From Veillonella parvula (GTDB lineage Bacteria; Bacillota; Negativicutes; Veillonellales; Veillonellaceae), in contig NZ_CP138632.1 in the NCBI RefSeq assembly GCF_036456085.1, forward strand, positions 930,001 through 994,000: a DNA stretch of 64,000 nt, in the 5' to 3' direction. Positions 2,790 to 56,717 of the stretch are shown in pieces (within the stretch, counting starts at the first letter, position 1; each line of letters begins with the position of its first letter). Made by a program: the position numbers and the translations under genes. The notes under the pieces were generated by a model that made no database searches, had not been told where the DNA came from, and worked only from the letters and a program-made list of their open reading frames with translations.

Positions 2790-3995
2790 TTAGAATTTGT
2801 AGTTAAGGTCTGCACGGTAGAAGTCAGCTTTATCATTACCGTTTTGATCTTTCCAATCAAAACCGTAGTTAGCTGTTAAGCCCACGTTGTTTTGCAATGC
2901 ATAGTCAACAGTAGCCATCCAACCTTTAGCATCTGTAGTGTAGATGTGGTTGTAAGTAGTATCAATGATAGGAGCATTTTCTTTTGCGTTGAAGTATTGA
3001 CCTTTTACGCCCCAAGTACCTTGTTTTTTGATGTCGTAGTTACCATAACCTACGCCTGCAGTCCAAGCTTGAGATTCTTCAAGGCTAGAAGCTTTCAACC
3101 ATTCGCCACCAACCCAAATTTTATCGAAGTTAGCATCAGCATTGAAACCATATACGTTTCTAACATCGTCATCTTGGTTAATACGGTCATAGAAACCACC
3201 AACCATAGCATGTTTACCAACTTTACCATTAACATTTACGATAAGATCAGTAACATTTTCCTCTTTAGTCAAGCCAGCTGCATCGCCAGACACCATGTAA
3301 CCATAAGCTACTTGTGCATTAACTTTGTTATTACCAGCATTGAATTGAGCACCATCGAAAGTACCATCAAATGCTAAGCCACCACCAACAACTTGGCCGA
3401 AACGACCAGCTTTCAAGGATACGCGTTCGCCGAATTTATGGTTAACATATGCGCGGTCAATTGTAGCATTTGCTTTACCTTTAGTAGTGGAGTCACCCAA
3501 TTCGAAGTTACCAGATGTCAAACGAACTACTGCATCAGTGCGATCGTTTACTTTTGCATTGAATTGTACACGTGCACGAGCGTCGAATTTGGATTTAGCG
3601 TGTTCAGCATCTTTATAACGAAGACGAGCATCACCAGTAACTTTTACGTTACCAACGCGGTCTTCCAAACGAGCTACACGAACGCCCAAGTTGTTCAATT
3701 CGTTGGAGAATTCATCAGCCAAACGATTGATCATAGCTTGTTGTTCAGCGTTAGCACGATCTTGGTTAGCCATAGCTTTAGCCACCATTTGAGCCATTTC
3801 ATAACGAGTGATGTTATTTTGGCCTTTGAAAGTACCATCAGGATAACCGTTAACGATACCAGCGTTCGCCAATTGAGAAACTGCTTGGTATGCCCAAGAA
3901 TCTGGAGTTACGTCGGAGAATGGGTTAGCTGCAAAAGCTGTAGTTACACCCAAAACTGCTGTTGCTGCAAAGATTGCTGCGAATTGTTTTTTCAT
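2790..3995 (-). CDS. ompM: OmpM: SLH-domain outer-membrane porin (copy 1)
   Basis: This 401-residue protein starts with a signal peptide (cleavage after AFA, about residue 22). One SLH domain covers about 25-75 (FSDVTPDSWAYQAV, NGYPDGTFKG, ITRYEMAQ). A short coiled coil (about 76-115) and a C-terminal beta-barrel follow, ending in Phe as outer-membrane barrels do. OmpM proteins tether the outer membrane of Negativicutes to peptidoglycan through SLH binding to polyamine-modified wall, and act as porins. The N-terminal ~135 residues are almost identical to the copy at 4555-5763, while the barrel differs. The gene has its own promoter, leader and terminator. Its number among ompM paralogues is not assigned here. 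Confidence 0.95.
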   Translation of the reverse strand: MKKQFAAIFAATAVLGVTTAFAANPFSDVTPDSWAYQAVSQLANAGIVNGYPDGTFKGQNNITRYEMAQMVAKAMANQDRANAEQQAMINRLADEFSNELNNLGVRVARLEDRVGNVKVTGDARLRYKDAEHAKSKFDARARVQFNAKVNDRTDAVVRLTSGNFELGDSTTKGKANATIDRAYVNHKFGERVSLKAGRFGQVVGGGLAFDGTFDGAQFNAGNNKVNAQVAYGYMVSGDAAGLTKEENVTDLIVNVNGKVGKHAMVGGFYDRINQDDDVRNVYGFNADANFDKIWVGGEWLKASSLEESQAWTAGVGYGNYDIKKQGTWGVKGQYFNAKENAPIIDTTYNHIYTTDAKGWMATVDYALQNNVGLTANYGFDWKDQNGNDKADFYRADLNYKF

Positions 3996-4075
3996 AGTTG
4001 AATTCCTTCTTTCTGAAAAAAATAGAAAATAAAATGTTACAAGTCATAACATTCACATTCTACTTGTTCTTCAGA

Positions 4076-4099
4076 TTAAGAATGTATAGGAGTGTCCAT
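4076..4099 (-). CDS. Upstream leader ORF of ompM copy 1 (MDTPIHS)
   Basis: Inside the ompM leader, a GAGG Shine-Dalgarno four bases before ATG opens a 7-codon ORF (Met-Asp-Thr-Pro-Ile-His-Ser, stop TAA). The Shine-Dalgarno plus the first four codons are identical in all three ompM leaders (here at 4088-4108). Translation is predicted, not shown. Confidence 0.45.
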   Translation of the reverse strand: MDTPIHS

Positions 4100-4163
4100 G
4101 TTTCCTCACCATATTCTACATTGAAGATTTTCGTTTCATGTATGTATCATGACCTGTACGGTG

Positions 4164-4192
4164 ATAGTATCACAACCTTTTTTCTATGTAAA
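4164..4192 (-). promoter_or_regulatory. Promoter of ompM copy 1
   Basis: The -35 TTTACA (4187-4192), a 17-base spacer and -10 TACTAT (4164-4169) with an extended TGA are seen. The other two ompM genes have the same layout. Predicted transcription start is near 4157, giving a leader of about 160 nt. Confidence 0.75.
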
Positions 4193-4509
4193 GCCTTAAC
4201 ACCTATATTCAGCCTTATCAATGAATATTTTCTATTTTAAAAGTTTCATGAACCCAGTAATATTCTAACTTCATGAATATTTCTTCATTTTATAGTTTTA
4301 TACACAAAAAATTTTTTAGCAAATTTAAAATCCTAATTTTAATTAATAATACTAATTAAATGATAATATATTTATTAATATAGAGAATGAATATAAGGCT
4401 ATATTATCATTATATTTATATGCTAAAAAAGAATACCCAACTTGCTCTCTATGTTAAATTGATAATATTCTAGGCTATTCACCGTGTATATTAATTTTCA
4501 AACTACAAA
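4193..4509. other. AT-rich spacer without a recognisable gene
   Basis: About 320 bases between the copy 1 promoter and the copy 2 terminator. It is very AT-rich, with no ORF carrying a ribosome-binding site and no stable hairpin seen by eye. Confidence 0.5.
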
Positions 4510-4535
4510 AAAGAGACTCCCGAAGGAGTCTCTTT
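4510..4535 (-). terminator. Rho-independent terminator after second ompM
   Basis: The same 11-bp stem AAAGAGACTCC/GGAGTCTCTTT as at 2745-2770 has a CGAA/TTCG loop and a following T run (TTTTGTAG) on the minus strand. Confidence 0.88.
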
Positions 4536-4554
4536 CATATAATTAACTATCAAA

Positions 4555-5763
4555 TTAGAATTTGTAGTTAAGGTCTGCACGGTAGAAGTCGGAAAGATCA
4601 GCACCGCTTTGAGTTTTCCAGTCGAAACCGTAGTAAGCGGACAAGCCAACGTTGTTTTGCAATGCATAGTCAACAGTTGCCATCCAACCTTTGGAGTCAG
4701 CACCGTATCTATGGTTCCAAGTGGAATCAACGATAGGAGCATTTTCTTTTTGGTTGAAGTATTGACCTTTTACATCCCATGTACCAGCTTTTTTGATGTC
4801 GTAGTTACCATAACCTACGCCTGCAGTCCAAGCTTGAGATTTATCAGCGCCAGAAGCTCTCAACCATTCGCCACCAACCCAAACTTTGTCGAAGTTAGCG
4901 TCAGCATTGAAGCCATAAACATTTTTATAGTCAGAATCATCTGCATTGAAACGGTTGTAGAAACCACCAACCATAGCATGTTTACCAACTTTACCGTTCA
5001 AGCCAAGGTAAGTGTTAGTTACGTTTTCGTCTTTAGTCAAGCCAGCTGCTTCACCGGATACCATGTAACCATAAGCTGCTTGAGCCATAATTTTGTCGTT
5101 GCCAACGTTCAATTGAGCACCGTCGAAAGTACCATCAAATGCTAAGCCGCCACCGAAAACTTGGTTAAAACGACCAGCTTTCAAGGATACGCGTTCGCCA
5201 AATTTGTGGTTAACATATGCGCGATCGATTGTAGCATTTGCATTACCACCAGTAGTGGAGTTACCCAATTCGAAGTTACCAGAAGTCAAACGAACAACTG
5301 CGTCAGTGCGATCGTTTACTTTTGCGTTGAATTGTACACGTGCACGAGCGTCGAATTTGGATTTAGCGTGTTCAGCATCTTGATAACGAAGACGTGCATC
5401 ACCAGTAACTTTTACATTACCAACGCGGTCTTCCAAGCGAGCTACACGAACGCCCAAGTTGTTCAATTCGTTGGAGAATTCATCAGCCAAACGGTTGATC
5501 ATAGCTTGTTGTTCAGCGTTAGCACGGTCTTGGTTAGCCATGGCTTTAGCTACCATTTGAGCCATTTCGTAACGAGTGATGTTGTTTTGACCTTTGAAAG
5601 TGCCATCTGGGTAACCATTGATAACACCAGCGTTAGCCAATTGAGAAACTGCTTGGTATGCCCAAGAATCTGGAGTTACATCGGAGAATGGGTTAGCTGC
5701 GAATGCAGTAGTTACACCCAAAACTGCTGTTGCTGCAAAGATTGCTGCGAATTGTTTTTTCAT
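4555..5763 (-). CDS. ompM: OmpM: SLH-domain outer-membrane porin (copy 2)
   Basis: This 402-residue protein has the same architecture as copy 1: signal peptide ending AFA, one SLH domain (about 25-75), coiled coil, then a beta-barrel ending DLNYKF with terminal Phe. It differs from copy 1 by only a few residues through about residue 135 (for example VING instead of IVNG in the SLH domain) and diverges more in barrel strands and loops. This suggests recent duplication or gene conversion with diversifying surface loops. It has its own promoter, a 5' leader almost identical to copy 1 and its own terminator. The ATG at 5763 follows the shared GAAAGAAGGAATTC ribosome-binding region. Confidence 0.95.
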   Translation of the reverse strand: MKKQFAAIFAATAVLGVTTAFAANPFSDVTPDSWAYQAVSQLANAGVINGYPDGTFKGQNNITRYEMAQMVAKAMANQDRANAEQQAMINRLADEFSNELNNLGVRVARLEDRVGNVKVTGDARLRYQDAEHAKSKFDARARVQFNAKVNDRTDAVVRLTSGNFELGNSTTGGNANATIDRAYVNHKFGERVSLKAGRFNQVFGGGLAFDGTFDGAQLNVGNDKIMAQAAYGYMVSGEAAGLTKDENVTNTYLGLNGKVGKHAMVGGFYNRFNADDSDYKNVYGFNADANFDKVWVGGEWLRASGADKSQAWTAGVGYGNYDIKKAGTWDVKGQYFNQKENAPIVDSTWNHRYGADSKGWMATVDYALQNNVGLSAYYGFDWKTQSGADLSDFYRADLNYKF

Positions 5764-5831
5764 AGTTGAATTCCTTCTTTCTGAAAAAAATAGAAAATAA
5801 AATGTTACAAGTCATAACATTCATATTCTAC

Positions 5832-5867
5832 TCAGTTCTTCAGATTAAGAATTTCAGGAGTGTCCAT
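5832..5867 (-). CDS. Upstream leader ORF of ompM copy 2 (MDTPEILNLKN)
   Basis: An 11-codon ORF opens with Met-Asp-Thr-Pro behind the invariant GAGGAAAC and ends TGA. The conserved 21-nt element is at 5856-5876. The ATG is 65 bases below the inner edge of the -10, the same distance as in copy 1. Translation is predicted only. Confidence 0.45.
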   Translation of the reverse strand: MDTPEILNLKN

Positions 5868-5931
5868 GTTTCCTCACTATATTCTACATCGAAGTTCTTC
5901 GTTTCATATGTTTGCTACTTCTTGTACGGTG

Positions 5932-5960
5932 ATATTAGCACAACCATTTTTTCATGTAAA
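5932..5960 (-). promoter_or_regulatory. Promoter of ompM copy 2
   Basis: The -35 TTTACA (5955-5960), 17-base spacer and -10 TAATAT (5932-5937) with an extended TGC are seen. The spacer shares GGTTGTG with copy 1. Confidence 0.77.
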
Positions 5961-6313
5961 CCCTTTTTTCTCATTTCCATTCTCATCCAATTAAAATTTT
6001 TAAATGAAAATGCTTACTATATTAGATTTTATCTGGTTTTGTAGATTCATTTTTTTATCACAAAAAAATTTAAATTTTTGTACTTTCCTATTAATCGAGA
6101 ATTATCATCATAATTACTATTAATTTAAACTTATAAATAAAATCGTCTTTAATAAAATATATAATAATTCTTTATACAAGATTTATTATATATCTAACGA
6201 AATTGAAATAGTATTGCTATATAACTACATAAAGGATTAGATAAAAAATATATATTTATGTTACTATATATATACTATTATATATAAAATAATTCATAAT
6301 ACTTTTATGCAAC
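5961..6313. other. AT-rich spacer without a recognisable gene
   Basis: About 350 very AT-rich bases, with long runs such as TATATATACTATTATATAT, lie between the copy 2 promoter and the copy 3 terminator. I see no gene, and nothing beyond simple AT repeats. Confidence 0.5.
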
Positions 6314-6345
6314 AAAAAAAAGACTTCCGAAGAAGTCTTTTTTTT
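6314..6345 (-). terminator. Rho-independent terminator after third ompM
   Basis: A 14-bp perfect stem has an eight-A/eight-T base and the core AGACTTC/GAAGTCT with a 4-base loop. It can work in either direction. Confidence 0.88.
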
Positions 6346-6358
6346 GTTTGTAAGGGAA

Positions 6359-7621
6359 TTAGAATTTGTAATTTAATTCTGCACGGTAGAAATCGGAAAG
6401 ATCATTACCGCTTTGGTCTTTTGAGTTGAAACCATAACCAGCGGATAAACCTACGTTATCTTGTACTGCGTAGTCTACGCTAGCCATGTAACCTTTGTAA
6501 CCATTAGATGTATTTGTTAAATCATATGCTTGATCCCAAGTGGAGCTTACGATTGGTGCATTAGCTTTTTGATTGAAGTATTGACCTTTTACATCCCATG
6601 TACCTTTTTTAGCGATGTCGTAGTTACCATAGCCAAGACCTGCTGTCCAAGCTTGAGAATTATCTACGTTGGAAGCTTTCAACCATTCACCGCCAGCCCA
6701 CAATTTATTTTTACGGAAGTCCGCATTGAAACCGTAAACATCTTGTTTATCGGAATTAACTGTTACACCATTGTGGTTCAAGTTGCCGCTAGATAATCTG
6801 GAGTAGAAACCACCAACGGAGGATTCTTTACCAACTTTACCTTTTAAGCCTACATAAGATACAGATGGGTTATCAGATTTGGAGTTGCCATCAGCAGCAC
6901 CATCAATCATGTAGCCATACGCACCTTGTACTTGAACTTTATCATTACCTACATTCAATTGTGCACCGTCAAATGTATCATCGTACATCAAACCGCCACC
7001 AATTGTTTGTTGGAAACGACCAGCTTTAGCAGATACGTTGCTACCAAATTTGTGATCTACGTAAGCACGATCGATTGTTGCTTGAGAACCTTTAGTAGAG
7101 TCACCAAATTCGTAATTACCTTTTACACGAACAACTGCTTGTGTTTTATCATTTACATTAGCATTGAATTGTACACGTGCACGGCCGTCAGTTAAGGATT
7201 TACTATTAGCTTTGTAAACACCTTTGTCTTCAGAACCTTGGTAACGGATACGAGCATCGCCAGTTACCTTTACATTACCTACACGGTCTTCCAAGCGAGA
7301 TACTCGAACGCCGAGGTTGTTCAACTCGTTAGAGAACTCATCTGCCAAGCGGTTAATCATAGCTTGTTGTTCAGCATTAGCACGGTCTTGGTTAGCCATA
7401 GCTTTAGCTACCATTTGAGCCATTTCATAACGAGTAATGTTATTTTGGCCTTTGAAAGTGCCATCTGGATAACCATTAACGATACCAGCTTGTGCCAATT
7501 GGGATACTGCTTGGTATGCCCAGCTGTCTGGAGTTACATCGGAGAATGGATTTGCAGCAAATGCTGTTGTTACACCTAACACTGCTGTTGCTGCTAACAT
7601 TGTTGCGAATTGTTTTTTCAT
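6359..7621 (-). CDS. ompM: OmpM: SLH-domain outer-membrane porin (copy 3)
   Basis: From the ATG at 7621 (ribosome-binding site AAGAAGGAATTC) this is 420 residues. A signal peptide ending AFA, one SLH domain with the same FSDVTPDSWAYQAV core, a coiled coil and a C-terminal barrel ending AELNYKF are seen. The SLH domain matches copies 1 and 2 closely, but the barrel is longer and clearly diverged, so this is the older paralogue. The frame stays open upstream to a GTG at 7675, which would add 18 unlikely residues; that GTG overlaps the stop of the leader ORF. It is probably an abundant porin and wall tether. Confidence 0.94.
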   Translation of the reverse strand: MKKQFATMLAATAVLGVTTAFAANPFSDVTPDSWAYQAVSQLAQAGIVNGYPDGTFKGQNNITRYEMAQMVAKAMANQDRANAEQQAMINRLADEFSNELNNLGVRVSRLEDRVGNVKVTGDARIRYQGSEDKGVYKANSKSLTDGRARVQFNANVNDKTQAVVRVKGNYEFGDSTKGSQATIDRAYVDHKFGSNVSAKAGRFQQTIGGGLMYDDTFDGAQLNVGNDKVQVQGAYGYMIDGAADGNSKSDNPSVSYVGLKGKVGKESSVGGFYSRLSSGNLNHNGVTVNSDKQDVYGFNADFRKNKLWAGGEWLKASNVDNSQAWTAGLGYGNYDIAKKGTWDVKGQYFNQKANAPIVSSTWDQAYDLTNTSNGYKGYMASVDYAVQDNVGLSAGYGFNSKDQSGNDLSDFYRAELNYKF

Positions 7622-7674
7622 AATGAATTCCTTCTTTCTTATAAATAAGAATTTATATTTACAGAAGACGTTCA

Positions 7675-7719
7675 CTACATAAGTAGTATCACTATGAAAG
7701 ATGTATTAGGAGTGTCCAT
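7675..7719 (-). CDS. Upstream leader ORF of ompM copy 3
   Basis: A 14-codon ORF (MDTPNTSFIVILLM, stop TAG) follows the invariant GAGGAAAC. The conserved 21-nt element is at 7708-7728. Its stop overlaps a GTG (TAGTG) that opens a frame continuing in phase into ompM. Translation is predicted only. Confidence 0.42.
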   Translation of the reverse strand: MDTPNTSFIVILLM

Positions 7720-7784
7720 GTTTCCTCAACTAAATTATCTATCTTAGCTCCACTTCTTTGTAGCGTAGCCTTTCTGTTGATGTG

Positions 7785-7813
7785 AATATACCACCACCCC
7801 AAAACTTTGTAAA
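7785..7813 (-). promoter_or_regulatory. Promoter of ompM copy 3
   Basis: The -35 TTTACA (7808-7813), 17-base spacer and -10 TATATT (7785-7790) with an extended TGG are seen. The leader ORF start lies 66 bases below the inner edge of the -10, matching the other copies. Confidence 0.77.
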
Positions 7814-8793: not shown

Positions 8794-9663
8794 TTAATGA
8801 CCACCTTTCGTAAATCTCCCACCAAAGACATCATGTACGTCTTGGATTGTAATAAATGCTGTAGGATCTACTTCATAAACGGTATCCTTTAATCTTGTAA
8901 TTTCTAGCCGCGTTACCACAGAATACAATACATGTTTCGGTTGTTTTAAATACCCGCCTTCTCCGTACATAATAGTAACACCACGATTAAGATTAGCATT
9001 TAATGCATCGGCAATAATCTTGGAATTATCTGCATCGGTAATAATCATAACCCCTTTAGATTCTTCAAGGCCAGTTATGGTCACATCAATCATCTTATAA
9101 GCAATAAAATAAGCGATTAAGGAATACATGGCACTATTCCAACTATATACAAAGCCCGCTGCTCCAAGAATAACTAAATTCATGGCCATTACAATTTCGC
9201 CTACAGAAAAGGTGGACCGTTTATCAAAAATAATAGCTACAATTTCAGAGCCATCTAATGAGCCACCATTACGAATAATAAGACCTACCCCAATACCTAA
9301 GATTATACCACCAAAGATAGATCCTAAGAATGGATCTGTCGTAATCGGTGTAAAATCATGAGCAAAGTTAGAAAATATAGCCATCCAGACAATGGAGAAC
9401 AATGTAGATAAGGTAAAGCCTTTACCGATTGCTCTATAGCCTAAATACAAGAATGGTAAATTGATAAGTACTACGAAAATACTAAAAGATATACCAGATA
9501 GTTCCGCAGCCATCAATGAAATACCAACTACACCACCATCGATGATGCTGTTGGGTACTAAAAATAAATCTAAGCCCACCGTATAGATGAAGGCCCCTAA
9601 AATCATCATTACACAACGCATAATAAGGTTTGACCAGTTACGCGTTGAAGTTTCATTCGTCAT
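8794..9663 (-). CDS. YitT family membrane protein
   Basis: This 289-residue protein begins at the ATG at 9663, chosen for its AAGGAG ribosome-binding site; the frame is open 36 bases further upstream. About five to six hydrophobic segments form the YitT (DUF161) part, with family motifs such as GGVVGIS and NGGSLDGSEIVA. A C-terminal soluble DUF2179-like domain (about 205-280) has IIADALNANLNRGVTIMYGE. The family is a common Firmicute membrane protein of unproven function, possibly a transporter. It overlaps the end of the upstream RNase H-fold gene by 11 bases, indicating translational coupling. Confidence 0.85.
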   Translation of the reverse strand: MTNETSTRNWSNLIMRCVMMILGAFIYTVGLDLFLVPNSIIDGGVVGISLMAAELSGISFSIFVVLINLPFLYLGYRAIGKGFTLSTLFSIVWMAIFSNFAHDFTPITTDPFLGSIFGGIILGIGVGLIIRNGGSLDGSEIVAIIFDKRSTFSVGEIVMAMNLVILGAAGFVYSWNSAMYSLIAYFIAYKMIDVTITGLEESKGVMIITDADNSKIIADALNANLNRGVTIMYGEGGYLKQPKHVLYSVVTRLEITRLKDTVYEVDPTAFITIQDVHDVFGGRFTKGGH

Positions 9664-10180
9664 GATTATCTCCTTTTCCGTATAACTGCTCCATAGCATG
9701 TAATCTTTTCTCTTCTAACTCACTTGAACTCATAGTTTCTTCTTTGATTGCCGCTTCGTTCTGAGCTAATTGCTTCGTATAGCGTAAGCCAATAACGAGA
9801 GCCGTCAAATCATCTACAGGTTCTGGTGGAAATTGCATAGATGTAGGAATAATCTTACGCCACCCTGTAGGAGGATTATATTGCCAATATAATTTACGGG
9901 CTTCCTCTGTACTGTGAGATTCATCGATTAAACTAGTTGTAATCTTGTGATTGCGTCCAATTTGTTGAAGAGAAGGATACAAATGTTTATGATTTGTACC
10001 ATTTCCACAAACGATATGAACGATACCATAATATTCAGTTAAAACACGCTCAATATCTTCATTGAAGGTATTTGAAGAAATAATTTTACGGCATATCATC
10101 TCACCGGAAGGTGAGACTATAGCTATACCAGTTTTCTCATTTCCTGGATCTACTGCTAAAATATATGTATTTTCAGTCAT
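9653..10180 (-). CDS. RuvC/YqgF-like RNase H-fold protein
   Basis: The start ATG at 10180 follows AAAGGGGAT, giving 175 residues; an in-frame extension to 10222 lacks a ribosome-binding site. The N-terminus ILAVDPGNEKTGIAIVS is the first strand and catalytic Asp region of the RuvC/YqgF RNase H fold. A conserved Glu (IDESHSTEEAR) and a late Asp (PVDDLTALVIGLRY) fit the remaining acidic residues. It resembles neither RuvC nor YqgF closely along its length, so nuclease activity is plausible and the substrate unknown. The C-terminal 35 residues are charged and probably helical. Confidence 0.7.
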   Translation of the reverse strand: MTENTYILAVDPGNEKTGIAIVSPSGEMICRKIISSNTFNEDIERVLTEYYGIVHIVCGNGTNHKHLYPSLQQIGRNHKITTSLIDESHSTEEARKLYWQYNPPTGWRKIIPTSMQFPPEPVDDLTALVIGLRYTKQLAQNEAAIKEETMSSSELEEKRLHAMEQLYGKGDNHDE

Positions 10181-10212
10181 TTGATTATCCCCTTTGTAAG
10201 TACAGTAGTTAT

Positions 10213-10221
10213 ATTTTAACA
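10213..10221 (-). promoter_or_regulatory. Possible extended -10 of the RNase H-fold/yitT/lepB operon
   Basis: TGTTAAAAT on the minus strand is positioned about 30 bases upstream of the start, just after the preceding terminator. No good -35 was found, so this is tentative. Confidence 0.35.
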
Positions 10222-10223
10222 TA

Positions 10224-10297: not shown

Positions 10298-11512
10298 TTA
10301 ATTAGTTTGTATTTTTGCCTTATCATTAAAATCTGGCATTTGAGTAATACGCAACTTCAGATGAACAGGACCAGATGAATATGTGTCGCCATCACTATAA
10401 GCTTCCACATGAACCTTACCACGCATAGTGCTTATTCTCTTAATGGCTGTAAACAAATCATCACCAGGTATCGTTCCAATATCACCTGATAAGGAATCAG
10501 GAATAATCCCCTTTGCCTTAGCACGCTCATTAACTTGTTTCAAGAATTGAAGCATAGAAGATTGAGCATTAGTCCCCCCATCAATTACTGTAGAGTGAAT
10601 TACCTCTCCATTTTTATAGATAAATTGCTGTGGATATACTTGAATAACGGCAACTGCAGGTTCACCTGAAATAATATTTCCTGCAGCCACAACTTGAACC
10701 ACCATAGGGGTTTTGGAATTGATTAACTTTTGAGTAGCTACCTCAACATTTTGTCGATCTACATACACAACGGATTGACCATTATCCTCTATGCCTAATC
10801 GGCGCAAAACAAGTTTATTTGTATCATCGATAATATGTTTAATAGCATTATTACTATCTTCTTCACTTAAACCAGGTCGTACAACAGCTTGTGCTAATAG
10901 CTGATCTACTTGGAAAAGAATGGTTCCTTCCCGTAAATGAATGATGCCATTTTGCAATTGTTCTTGTGTATTTTGTAGATTTTTAATGTGGGCTTCCATC
11001 TTAGCACGTGTTGCTTCAAGCTCAGCTACCTTTTGAGATACCTCTGCATAAGAGGCTTGTAAAGATGCCAGTTCGGCTTCTGTTGCATCTTTAGCAGCTT
11101 GTGCACTCGCCAATTCAGCTTTTGTAGCCTCTACTTCACGGCGAATTTGTTCAATCTCAGCCATCCGTTCTTCAAGCTCTTGTTTATTCTGTTCTAACAA
11201 AGCCTGTCCACGAATCAGTTCTTGCGTCTTTGCAGCGACCTCATTATTCAGCTGCTTCATATCAGCTCGCAACTGATCCATACCGAACAATGCGGTTCGT
11301 ACACTTTGAGACGTAAAAGTTAATACTCCAACCGTAGCTGCTGCAACCAAAAGGCCTGTCACAATAGTAACTATAATAGATGTGTGCTTAGGTCGTAATC
11401 CAAAGAGGGACATACGACGTTTACCAATTTTAGTGCCTAGCTTATCCCCCATGTAAGCAATGAGACCACCCATAAGAGCGATAATTATTAAGATTTTAAC
11501 ACCTACTAACAT
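10298..11512 (-). CDS. DUF3084 domain envelope protein
   Basis: About 404 residues. Two N-terminal membrane helices (about 5-22 and 46-67) flank the conserved IGKRRMSLFGLRPKHTSI segment typical of DUF3084. A long coiled coil (about 80-190) rich in Glu, Gln and Ala follows, then a C-terminal folded domain. Two ATGs are adjacent; the second (11512) is six bases from AGGAGG and is preferred to 11515. The family occurs mainly in cyanobacteria and diderm Firmicutes and has no established function. Being last in the lipid A/Lpt operon, 33 bases after lptF, suggests an envelope role, perhaps structural or linked to Lpt. Confidence 0.85.
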   Translation of the reverse strand: MLVGVKILIIIALMGGLIAYMGDKLGTKIGKRRMSLFGLRPKHTSIIVTIVTGLLVAAATVGVLTFTSQSVRTALFGMDQLRADMKQLNNEVAAKTQELIRGQALLEQNKQELEERMAEIEQIRREVEATKAELASAQAAKDATEAELASLQASYAEVSQKVAELEATRAKMEAHIKNLQNTQEQLQNGIIHLREGTILFQVDQLLAQAVVRPGLSEEDSNNAIKHIIDDTNKLVLRRLGIEDNGQSVVYVDRQNVEVATQKLINSKTPMVVQVVAAGNIISGEPAVAVIQVYPQQFIYKNGEVIHSTVIDGGTNAQSSMLQFLKQVNERAKAKGIIPDSLSGDIGTIPGDDLFTAIKRISTMRGKVHVEAYSDGDTYSSGPVHLKLRITQMPDFNDKAKIQTN

Positions 11513-11545
11513 CATGTCCCTCCTTTCTCCTAAGAATACAATCTG

Positions 11546-56554: not shown

Positions 56555-56593
56555 ACGACTACAAGAGCATCACAAAATAGCTCTTGTAGTCGT
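56555..56593 (-). terminator. Riboswitch expression-platform terminator
   Basis: A 14-bp perfect stem ACGACTACAAGAGC/GCTCTTGTAGTCGT with an 11-base loop is followed by TTTTTATTTATTTT. Its 5' arm contains the 3' strand of aptamer helix P1 and J3/1, so the aptamer and terminator share nucleotides. The precise ligand logic is inferred. Confidence 0.85.
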
Positions 56594-56646
56594 GAATATC
56601 GGTTCCCGCTAGAAAGCCTTGACCCATCATGTCAAGGGTATACAAG
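56583..56646 (-). ncRNA. Purine riboswitch aptamer, guanine-class
   Basis: On the minus strand: P1 CTTGTA/TACAAG; P2 CCTTGAC/GTCAAGG with loop ATGATGG; J2/3 TTTCTA; P3 GGGAA with loop CCGATA and a poorly paired 3' arm; J3/1 GACTAC. The GG of loop 2 and CC of loop 3 can kiss as in the known fold. The C in J3/1 corresponds to the base that pairs with guanine (U in adenine types). J1/2 reads TACC where TAATC-like sequence is usual, so specificity could be altered. It precedes a purine permease and overlaps a terminator. Confidence 0.82.
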
Positions 56647-56717
56647 GTATAGTCTTACTATGAAATTATATATATCAATTGTATAAAATATGTACCGAAC
56701 AAATATGTCTTAGTTTA

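Follow-up and report, generated by a model that had tools for sequence, protein, structure and literature searches.

A conserved RNA hairpin in the leaders of SLH-porin genes of Veillonella and other bacteria resembles the cyanobacterial RNA Yfr2

Three tandem ompM genes on the minus strand of a 64,000-nucleotide stretch of the Veillonella parvula genome (contig NZ_CP138632.1, positions 930,001 to 994,000; hereafter the window) carry in their leaders the same 21 bases, which almost certainly form an RNA hairpin. Its 12-nucleotide (nt) apical loop, GAAACNNGGANA, is almost invariant, and its stem changes by compensation. This one hairpin marks genes for S-layer homology (SLH) porins in at least three phyla and ties them to an abundant cyanobacterial RNA family, Yfr2 (Cyano-1 in Rfam), the conservation of whose loop has been unexplained since 2005; the two are very probably the same kind of module. 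Presence, conservation, selection at the RNA level, gene linkage, phyletic range and resemblance to Cyano-1 are established by sequence comparison. The function preferred here, with fair confidence, is that of a cis-regulatory element read by a conserved RNA-binding protein that would act on the stability or translation of the porin mRNAs.

The 21-mer, TGAGGAAACATGGACACTCCT, occurs at 4088-4108, 5856-5876 and 7708-7728, one copy per leader, as a preceding sequence-only reading of the window had observed. With up to three mismatches allowed, it has 3 matches in the 64-kb window and 0 in 100 dinucleotide shuffles. A genome-wide search, which that reading had called for, found no further copy in the rest of the 2.21-Mb genome: a three-mismatch match at 125815 lies inside a reading frame, without leader context, and looks like chance, as the other three-mismatch matches were also judged to be, and a covariance-model scan of the genome gave no convincing extra copies (best match after the three, E 0.04). 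The same tandem ompM arrangement has been described for V. parvula, in whose outer membrane these proteins rank among the most abundant (PMC5491611). The features of the three loci are listed below; the leader 5' ends are predicted, not mapped.

2790-3995, minus strand: ompM copy 1, with SLH (PF00395) and Porin_5 (PF16930) domains
4003-4034, minus strand: U-rich tract and Shine-Dalgarno sequence (GAAGGAA) of ompM copy 1, 3' of the rod
4039-4157, minus strand: predicted rod-shaped leader of copy 1, capped by the loop (-34.1 kcal/mol, z -4.43, 0/200 shuffles as stable)
4090-4107, minus strand: core hairpin of copy 1, GAG[GAAACATGGACA]CTC, 12-nt loop at 4093-4104
4164-4192, minus strand: promoter-like site of copy 1, TTTACA-17-TACTAT, TG-extended (consensus match only)
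4555-5763, minus strand: ompM copy 2, with SLH and Porin_5 domains
5807-5925, minus strand: predicted rod-shaped leader of copy 2 (-30.8 kcal/mol, z -5.28)
5858-5875, minus strand: core hairpin of copy 2, GAG[GAAACATGGACA]CTC, 12-nt loop at 5861-5872
5932-5960, minus strand: promoter-like site of copy 2, TTTACA-17-TAATAT, TG-extended (consensus match only)
6359-7621, minus strand: ompM copy 3, with SLH domain (the porin domain is detectable in copies 1 and 2 only)
7661-7777, minus strand: predicted rod-shaped leader of copy 3 (-35.7 kcal/mol, z -4.69)
7710-7727, minus strand: core hairpin of copy 3, GAG[GAAACATGGACA]CTC, 12-nt loop at 7713-7724
7785-7813, minus strand: promoter-like site of copy 3, TTTACA-17-TATATT, TG-extended (consensus match only)

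The promoter-like sites are of like design, as had been noted, and the end of the -10 box lies 56-57 nt ahead of the element in all three leaders. No intrinsic terminator was found in these leaders, including between rod and ompM.

Across Negativicutes the element reads GAGGAAAC-NN-GGA-N-ACTC, and the only constant stem pair is the loop-adjacent G-C. Nearly every site with an intact loop has a GAG/CTC stem; six loci have AAG/CTT instead, two ompM leaders of Veillonella have ATG/CAT, and a TonB-receptor-like gene (L442, G059:C4:33251-33268) is preceded by GTG/CAC. Whole stems are also replaced: porin leaders of one Veillonella genome carry GCATATG[GAAACGTGGACA]CATATGC and ATATATG[GAAACGAGGATA]CATATAT, and a further porin leader carries AAAAAG[GAAACATGGAGA]CTTTTT. 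With the core held fixed, matched flanks pair at a mean of -7.77 kcal/mol, compared with -4.37 +/- 0.22 kcal/mol for flanks exchanged among the 156 sites, and covariation by column pair reaches z values of up to 5.6. The earlier view that the element is under selection is thereby borne out, since flanks and stem pair and covary around a near-invariant loop. The core is invariant by construction in the pattern-selected set; a one-mismatch search of the order gave a few core departures, e.g., GAGGGAAC and GAGGTAAC.

Unconstrained folding of the window leaders yields a rod of ~118 nt that starts near the predicted 5' end and has the loop at its tip (z -4.4 to -5.3), and among 70 diverse leaders, 89% form the loop in their minimum-energy fold. 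A reversed-sequence control was uninformative, because the reversed hairpin folds too. Among the best folds of 266 porin-linked sites (see below), 119 have no bulge, 57 carry one bulged nucleotide in the 5' arm, and the others show small internal loops; owing to the bulges, the pairing register shifts.

Of 381 Negativicutes genomes, 235 contain the exact 15-base pattern, as do 72 of 102 genera; the reversed pattern gave two matches. Absence from related ompM leaders, which the sequence-only reading had named as a possible refutation, was not the outcome. The Negativicutes element precedes SLH-porin or other porin genes, and a phylum sample of Bacillota outside Negativicutes has the pattern before the same types of gene (reversed-pattern controls, 0). 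A scan of named genomes added Thermus, Trueperaceae, Atribacterota, Limnochordia and Halanaerobiales, where, at every site with downstream sequence, an SLH or porin gene follows the element at 39-145 nt; in Thermus, Trueperaceae and Atribacterota the downstream gene is an SLH gene, whose start is 64 nt away in Thermus species. Altogether, a signal-peptide-like open reading frame starts 40-168 nt (median 96 nt) downstream of the element at 266 of 304 unique sites, and -10-like boxes in the site set end most often 50-60 nt upstream of the element. The other 38 sites show no such linkage and almost all belong to unrelated organisms picked up by the all-genome scan, for which the size of the collection leads to an estimate of ~480 chance matches; the matches in Rhizobium, Streptomyces, Afipia and similar organisms have no porin linkage, and many lie within reading frames.

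Some related loci depart from this layout. The GTG/CAC hairpin ahead of a TonB-receptor-like gene suggests that the gene set may extend past porins, and in several uncultured Bacillota a further signal-peptide-bearing gene, located after the first porin, is preceded by an AAG/CTT hairpin. A loop variant, GAAACAAGGCAA (GGCAA), occurs in SLH-porin leaders of Acidaminococcaceae-like and Selenomonadaceae-like genomes that do not have the exact pattern. Acidaminococcaceae-like leaders also contain a second, AU-rich inverted repeat just 5' of the Shine-Dalgarno sequence (e.g., GTTTTATAAAAATAAAAC). An ompM-type gene with the element was found on a contig labelled as an Acholeplasmataceae metagenome-assembled genome, which is likely mis-binned.

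The 21 bases had previously been interpreted as a Shine-Dalgarno sequence followed by the start of a regulatory upstream open reading frame (MDTP...). The short frames of 7, 11 and 14 codons do exist in the window, and the triplet at the loop is NTG in 175 of 266 porin-linked sites. Its 'ATG', however, is the NNG of the apical loop. Leaders of 15 Veillonella-group genomes and 14 others in the family have a nearly constant core, GAGGAAAC.TGGACACTCC, in which the first base of the 'start' is A, G or T, as would fit a start codon if taken alone; in other families CAG, TAG, ACG, AAG or GAG stands in place of a start codon. Counted over the 266 sites, the triplet is ATG 90 times, GTG 71, AAG 42, TTG 14, CAG 14, ACG 12, GAG 6, AGG 5 and TAG 4, and in 91 sites it is none of ATG, GTG and TTG. 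Frames in Veillonellaceae range from 4 to >30 codons, several running without a stop into or past the ompM start, and their sequence is unconserved; neither the start codon nor the frame nor the peptide is conserved as leader-peptide control would lead one to expect. Silent positions of the Asp-Thr codons are under constraint, and the third base of the ACT (Thr) codon is invariant. Because triplet and frame length vary while that third base is fixed, an upstream open reading frame is rejected as the general function and is most improbable; the proposed comparison of frame conservation with RNA covariation came out on the side of RNA. A weak residue is that C is rare before TG (1 in 176, CTG occurring once only), and a start codon may thus act locally in some clades.

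The hairpin has a counterpart in Rfam. On the leader of Thermus altitudinis, Cyano-1 (RF01701), which corresponds to the Yfr2 family (PMC8400943), falls exactly on the element with 28.7 bits, and the two align end to end, with an identical loop, GAAACNNGGAAA, and GUG/CAC replacing GAG/CUC. The Cyano-1 consensus, GUG[GAAACAAGGAAA]CAC, through which alone cyanobacterial Yfr2 was compared, has the same 12-nt loop and the same closing G-C, with U-A where the leaders mostly have A-U. When 20 other element-bearing loci were searched against 4227 Rfam families, Cyano-1 made up four of the seven matches at E<=5, all four on the element; the remaining Rfam families gave no match above their gathering scores on the leaders. 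At E<=0.01, RF01701 was detected in 15 of 301 Negativicutes genomes and, among 14 control genomes, only in Synechococcus elongatus. Copy 3 of the window ranks top for RF01701 in its own genome, weakly (18.6 bits, E 1.4). Searches with BLAST of the Cyano-1 consensus against plasmids and phages gave short chance matches only, and 13 matches to the GTG/CAC hairpin in viral contigs showed no porin linkage among those inspected.

Yfr2 RNAs carry a GGAAACA repeat in the loop (PMC1242208), and their 12-nt loop, long stem and bulge at -4 were read as a hint of protein binding (PMC2662882). Weinberg et al. assigned Cyano-1 to cyanobacteria alone and did not class it as cis-regulatory (PMC2864571). Since Yfr2 sequesters Yfr1, a repressor of porin mRNAs (PMC6778093, PMC6974561), the hairpin is linked to outer-membrane porins in both of its forms. 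The sequence-only reading knew of no description of the element. This holds for porin leaders: neither the hairpin there nor the regulation of OmpM/SlpA-type SLH porins was found described in the accessible literature (subscription journals lay outside the search). It does not hold for the hairpin as such, which matches the already known Yfr2/Cyano-1.

It is proposed that each ompM mRNA would open with a structured leader, a long rod tipped by the 12-nt loop, closed by G-C on a short covarying stem that is often bulged four nucleotides below the loop. The module would be the Yfr2/Cyano-1 hairpin, set in cis ahead of SLH-porin (OmpM/SlpA) and other outer-membrane genes. From a fixed loop sitting on a freely covarying stem we infer recognition by a specific partner; a conserved trans-acting factor, likelier a protein than a small RNA, would recognise the rod tip and may jointly set how stable or how well translated these very abundant mRNAs are, thereby coupling tether and porin synthesis to the state of the envelope. 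The presence of the element in all three ompM leaders makes a coordinator of porin and tether genes, as suggested before, plausible. We likewise infer that the loop is bound by a factor, that this factor is a protein and how it would act. A conserved RNA-binding protein is favoured because CsrA is excluded, a small RNA is unlikely and the leaders have no terminator. The CsrA domain PF02599 was unmatched in all 121 Veillonellales and Acidaminococcales genomes sampled, many of them element-bearing, which excludes CsrA as the partner in Veillonella; for cyanobacteria, no RsmA/RsmE homologue was found (PMC2662882).

Several results weigh against this proposal or against the kinship with Yfr2. The RF01701 cut-off of 41 bits is reached by no site in the 301 Negativicutes genomes (best 38.8), so homology of the hairpin with Yfr2 is argued from loop and architecture, and the likeness may reflect either common ancestry or convergence on one binding partner. 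The 5' motif with which Yfr2 pairs with Yfr1 is absent from the leaders, where the predicted 5' end of the rod is paired, and the V. parvula genome has no exact Yfr1 motif (one-mismatch matches 14, reversed control 13). The loop is absent from 14 of 14 plasmid-borne SLH-porin leaders examined, eight of them cyanobacterial, the cyanobacterial porin leaders covered being plasmid-borne only. Several ompM paralogues elsewhere in Veillonella genomes have no hairpin within 450 nt and may be under different control. The bulge that Yfr2 has at -4 is seen on the 5' side in 128 of the 266 best folds; 119 lack it.

Other explanations account for part of the data. The matching cyanobacterial RNA is free and ~80-95 nt long, and two Yfr2 RNAs of Synechocystis start at the same site as the next gene downstream (PMC2662882, PMC1242208); the rod, which starts near the predicted transcript start, might likewise be released from the ompM transcript, or be made as a leader-only RNA, and serve as a Yfr2-like decoy in trans while also being a 5' untranslated region. 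There is, however, no terminator-like site between rod and ompM, and trans action would not need the element to be kept 40-168 nt from the porin start in every lineage, which makes such an RNA rather unlikely. Slightly less probable still is a target of a trans-encoded base-pairing small RNA at GAGGAAAC/GGANACTC, as the sequence-only reading had also considered. Porin mRNAs are classic targets of small RNAs. Moreover, Yfr1 represses cyanobacterial porins via their 5' untranslated regions (PMC6778093, PMC6974561). Positions 9, 10 and 14 nevertheless vary freely within the would-be pairing stretch, the stem is replaceable wholesale, and an exact Yfr1 motif is lacking in this genome; because mid-loop positions vary yet the rest of the loop is the same from Thermus to Veillonella, unlike the evolution of small RNA-target pairs, this partner is disfavoured.

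A generic hairpin that stabilises an abundant mRNA without any specific partner would fit the position of a stable rod, close to the predicted 5' end and ahead of a highly expressed gene, yet stability does not need a fixed 12-nt loop, and it is the stem that varies and the loop that does not; this explanation is improbable. Hardly more than a slight chance is given to a small-ligand riboswitch: the RNA is compact, conserved and located in a 5' leader, but it has a single small loop, a variable distance to the start codon, no terminator and no conserved downstream expression platform. The least probable of all is a DNA operator, i.e., an inverted repeat for a transcription factor. The preferred spacing of the -10 box end, 50-60 nt upstream, would agree with it, whereas the stems are bulged, asymmetric and without conserved sequence, and the invariant loop is non-palindromic, which suits RNA over a dimeric DNA-binding protein.

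The preferred reading, a hairpin recognised by an RNA-binding protein, allows a further step that is offered tentatively. The hairpin might be read throughout the diderm Terrabacteria by a single ancient RNA-binding regulator that controls the outer membrane; it would serve in cis within OmpM/SlpA leaders of Bacillota, Deinococcota and Atribacterota, and in trans in cyanobacteria, as Yfr2, after being freed there as a small RNA. OmpM/SlpA-type SLH porins have been proposed as an ancestral outer-membrane tether; if the step is true, the element would be a vestige of outer-membrane control passed on together with the SLH tether. The finding also bears on the timing of outer-membrane control relative to the diderm-to-monoderm transition.

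Three further features of the window were recorded:

9653-10222, minus strand: gene for a RuvX-like protein
10298-11515, minus strand: gene for a DUF3084 protein
56567-56665, minus strand: purine riboswitch RF00167 (44 bits)

The RuvX-like and DUF3084 genes lie close upstream of ompM-type genes in Negativicutes, a conserved neighbourhood, and one or both are near ompM-type genes at Halanaerobiales-like and Limnochordia-like loci. They were rejected as readers of the hairpin: they are near ompM in Bacillota, and not at the inspected Deinococcota and Atribacterota loci.

Among known systems, CsrA/RsmA sites and Rsm RNAs share repeated GGA motifs in a hairpin with the element, whose conservation, unlike theirs, reaches far past GGA. 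The slpA gene of Thermus thermophilus belongs to the same family as the element-linked SLH genes, and its leader is reportedly a regulated 5' untranslated region. Riboswitch candidates of Veillonellales (gltD, ldh2, ilvD, potE; PMC8632094) are cis-regulatory RNAs of the same clade, linked to other genes, and their list contains no porin motif. The difference from Yfr2 is that the hairpin lies here within predicted porin mRNA leaders of Bacillota, Deinococcota and Atribacterota and is probably not a free RNA, and that these leaders have GAG/CUC instead of GUG/CAC, stay below the Rfam cut-off and do not carry the Yfr1-pairing 5' motif. Shared with Yfr2/Cyano-1 are the 12-nt loop with its GGAAACA-type repeat, the closing G-C, the 3-bp upper stem, the long stem, in part of the best folds a bulge at -4, and the link to porin control (PMC2662882, PMC1242208, PMC6778093).

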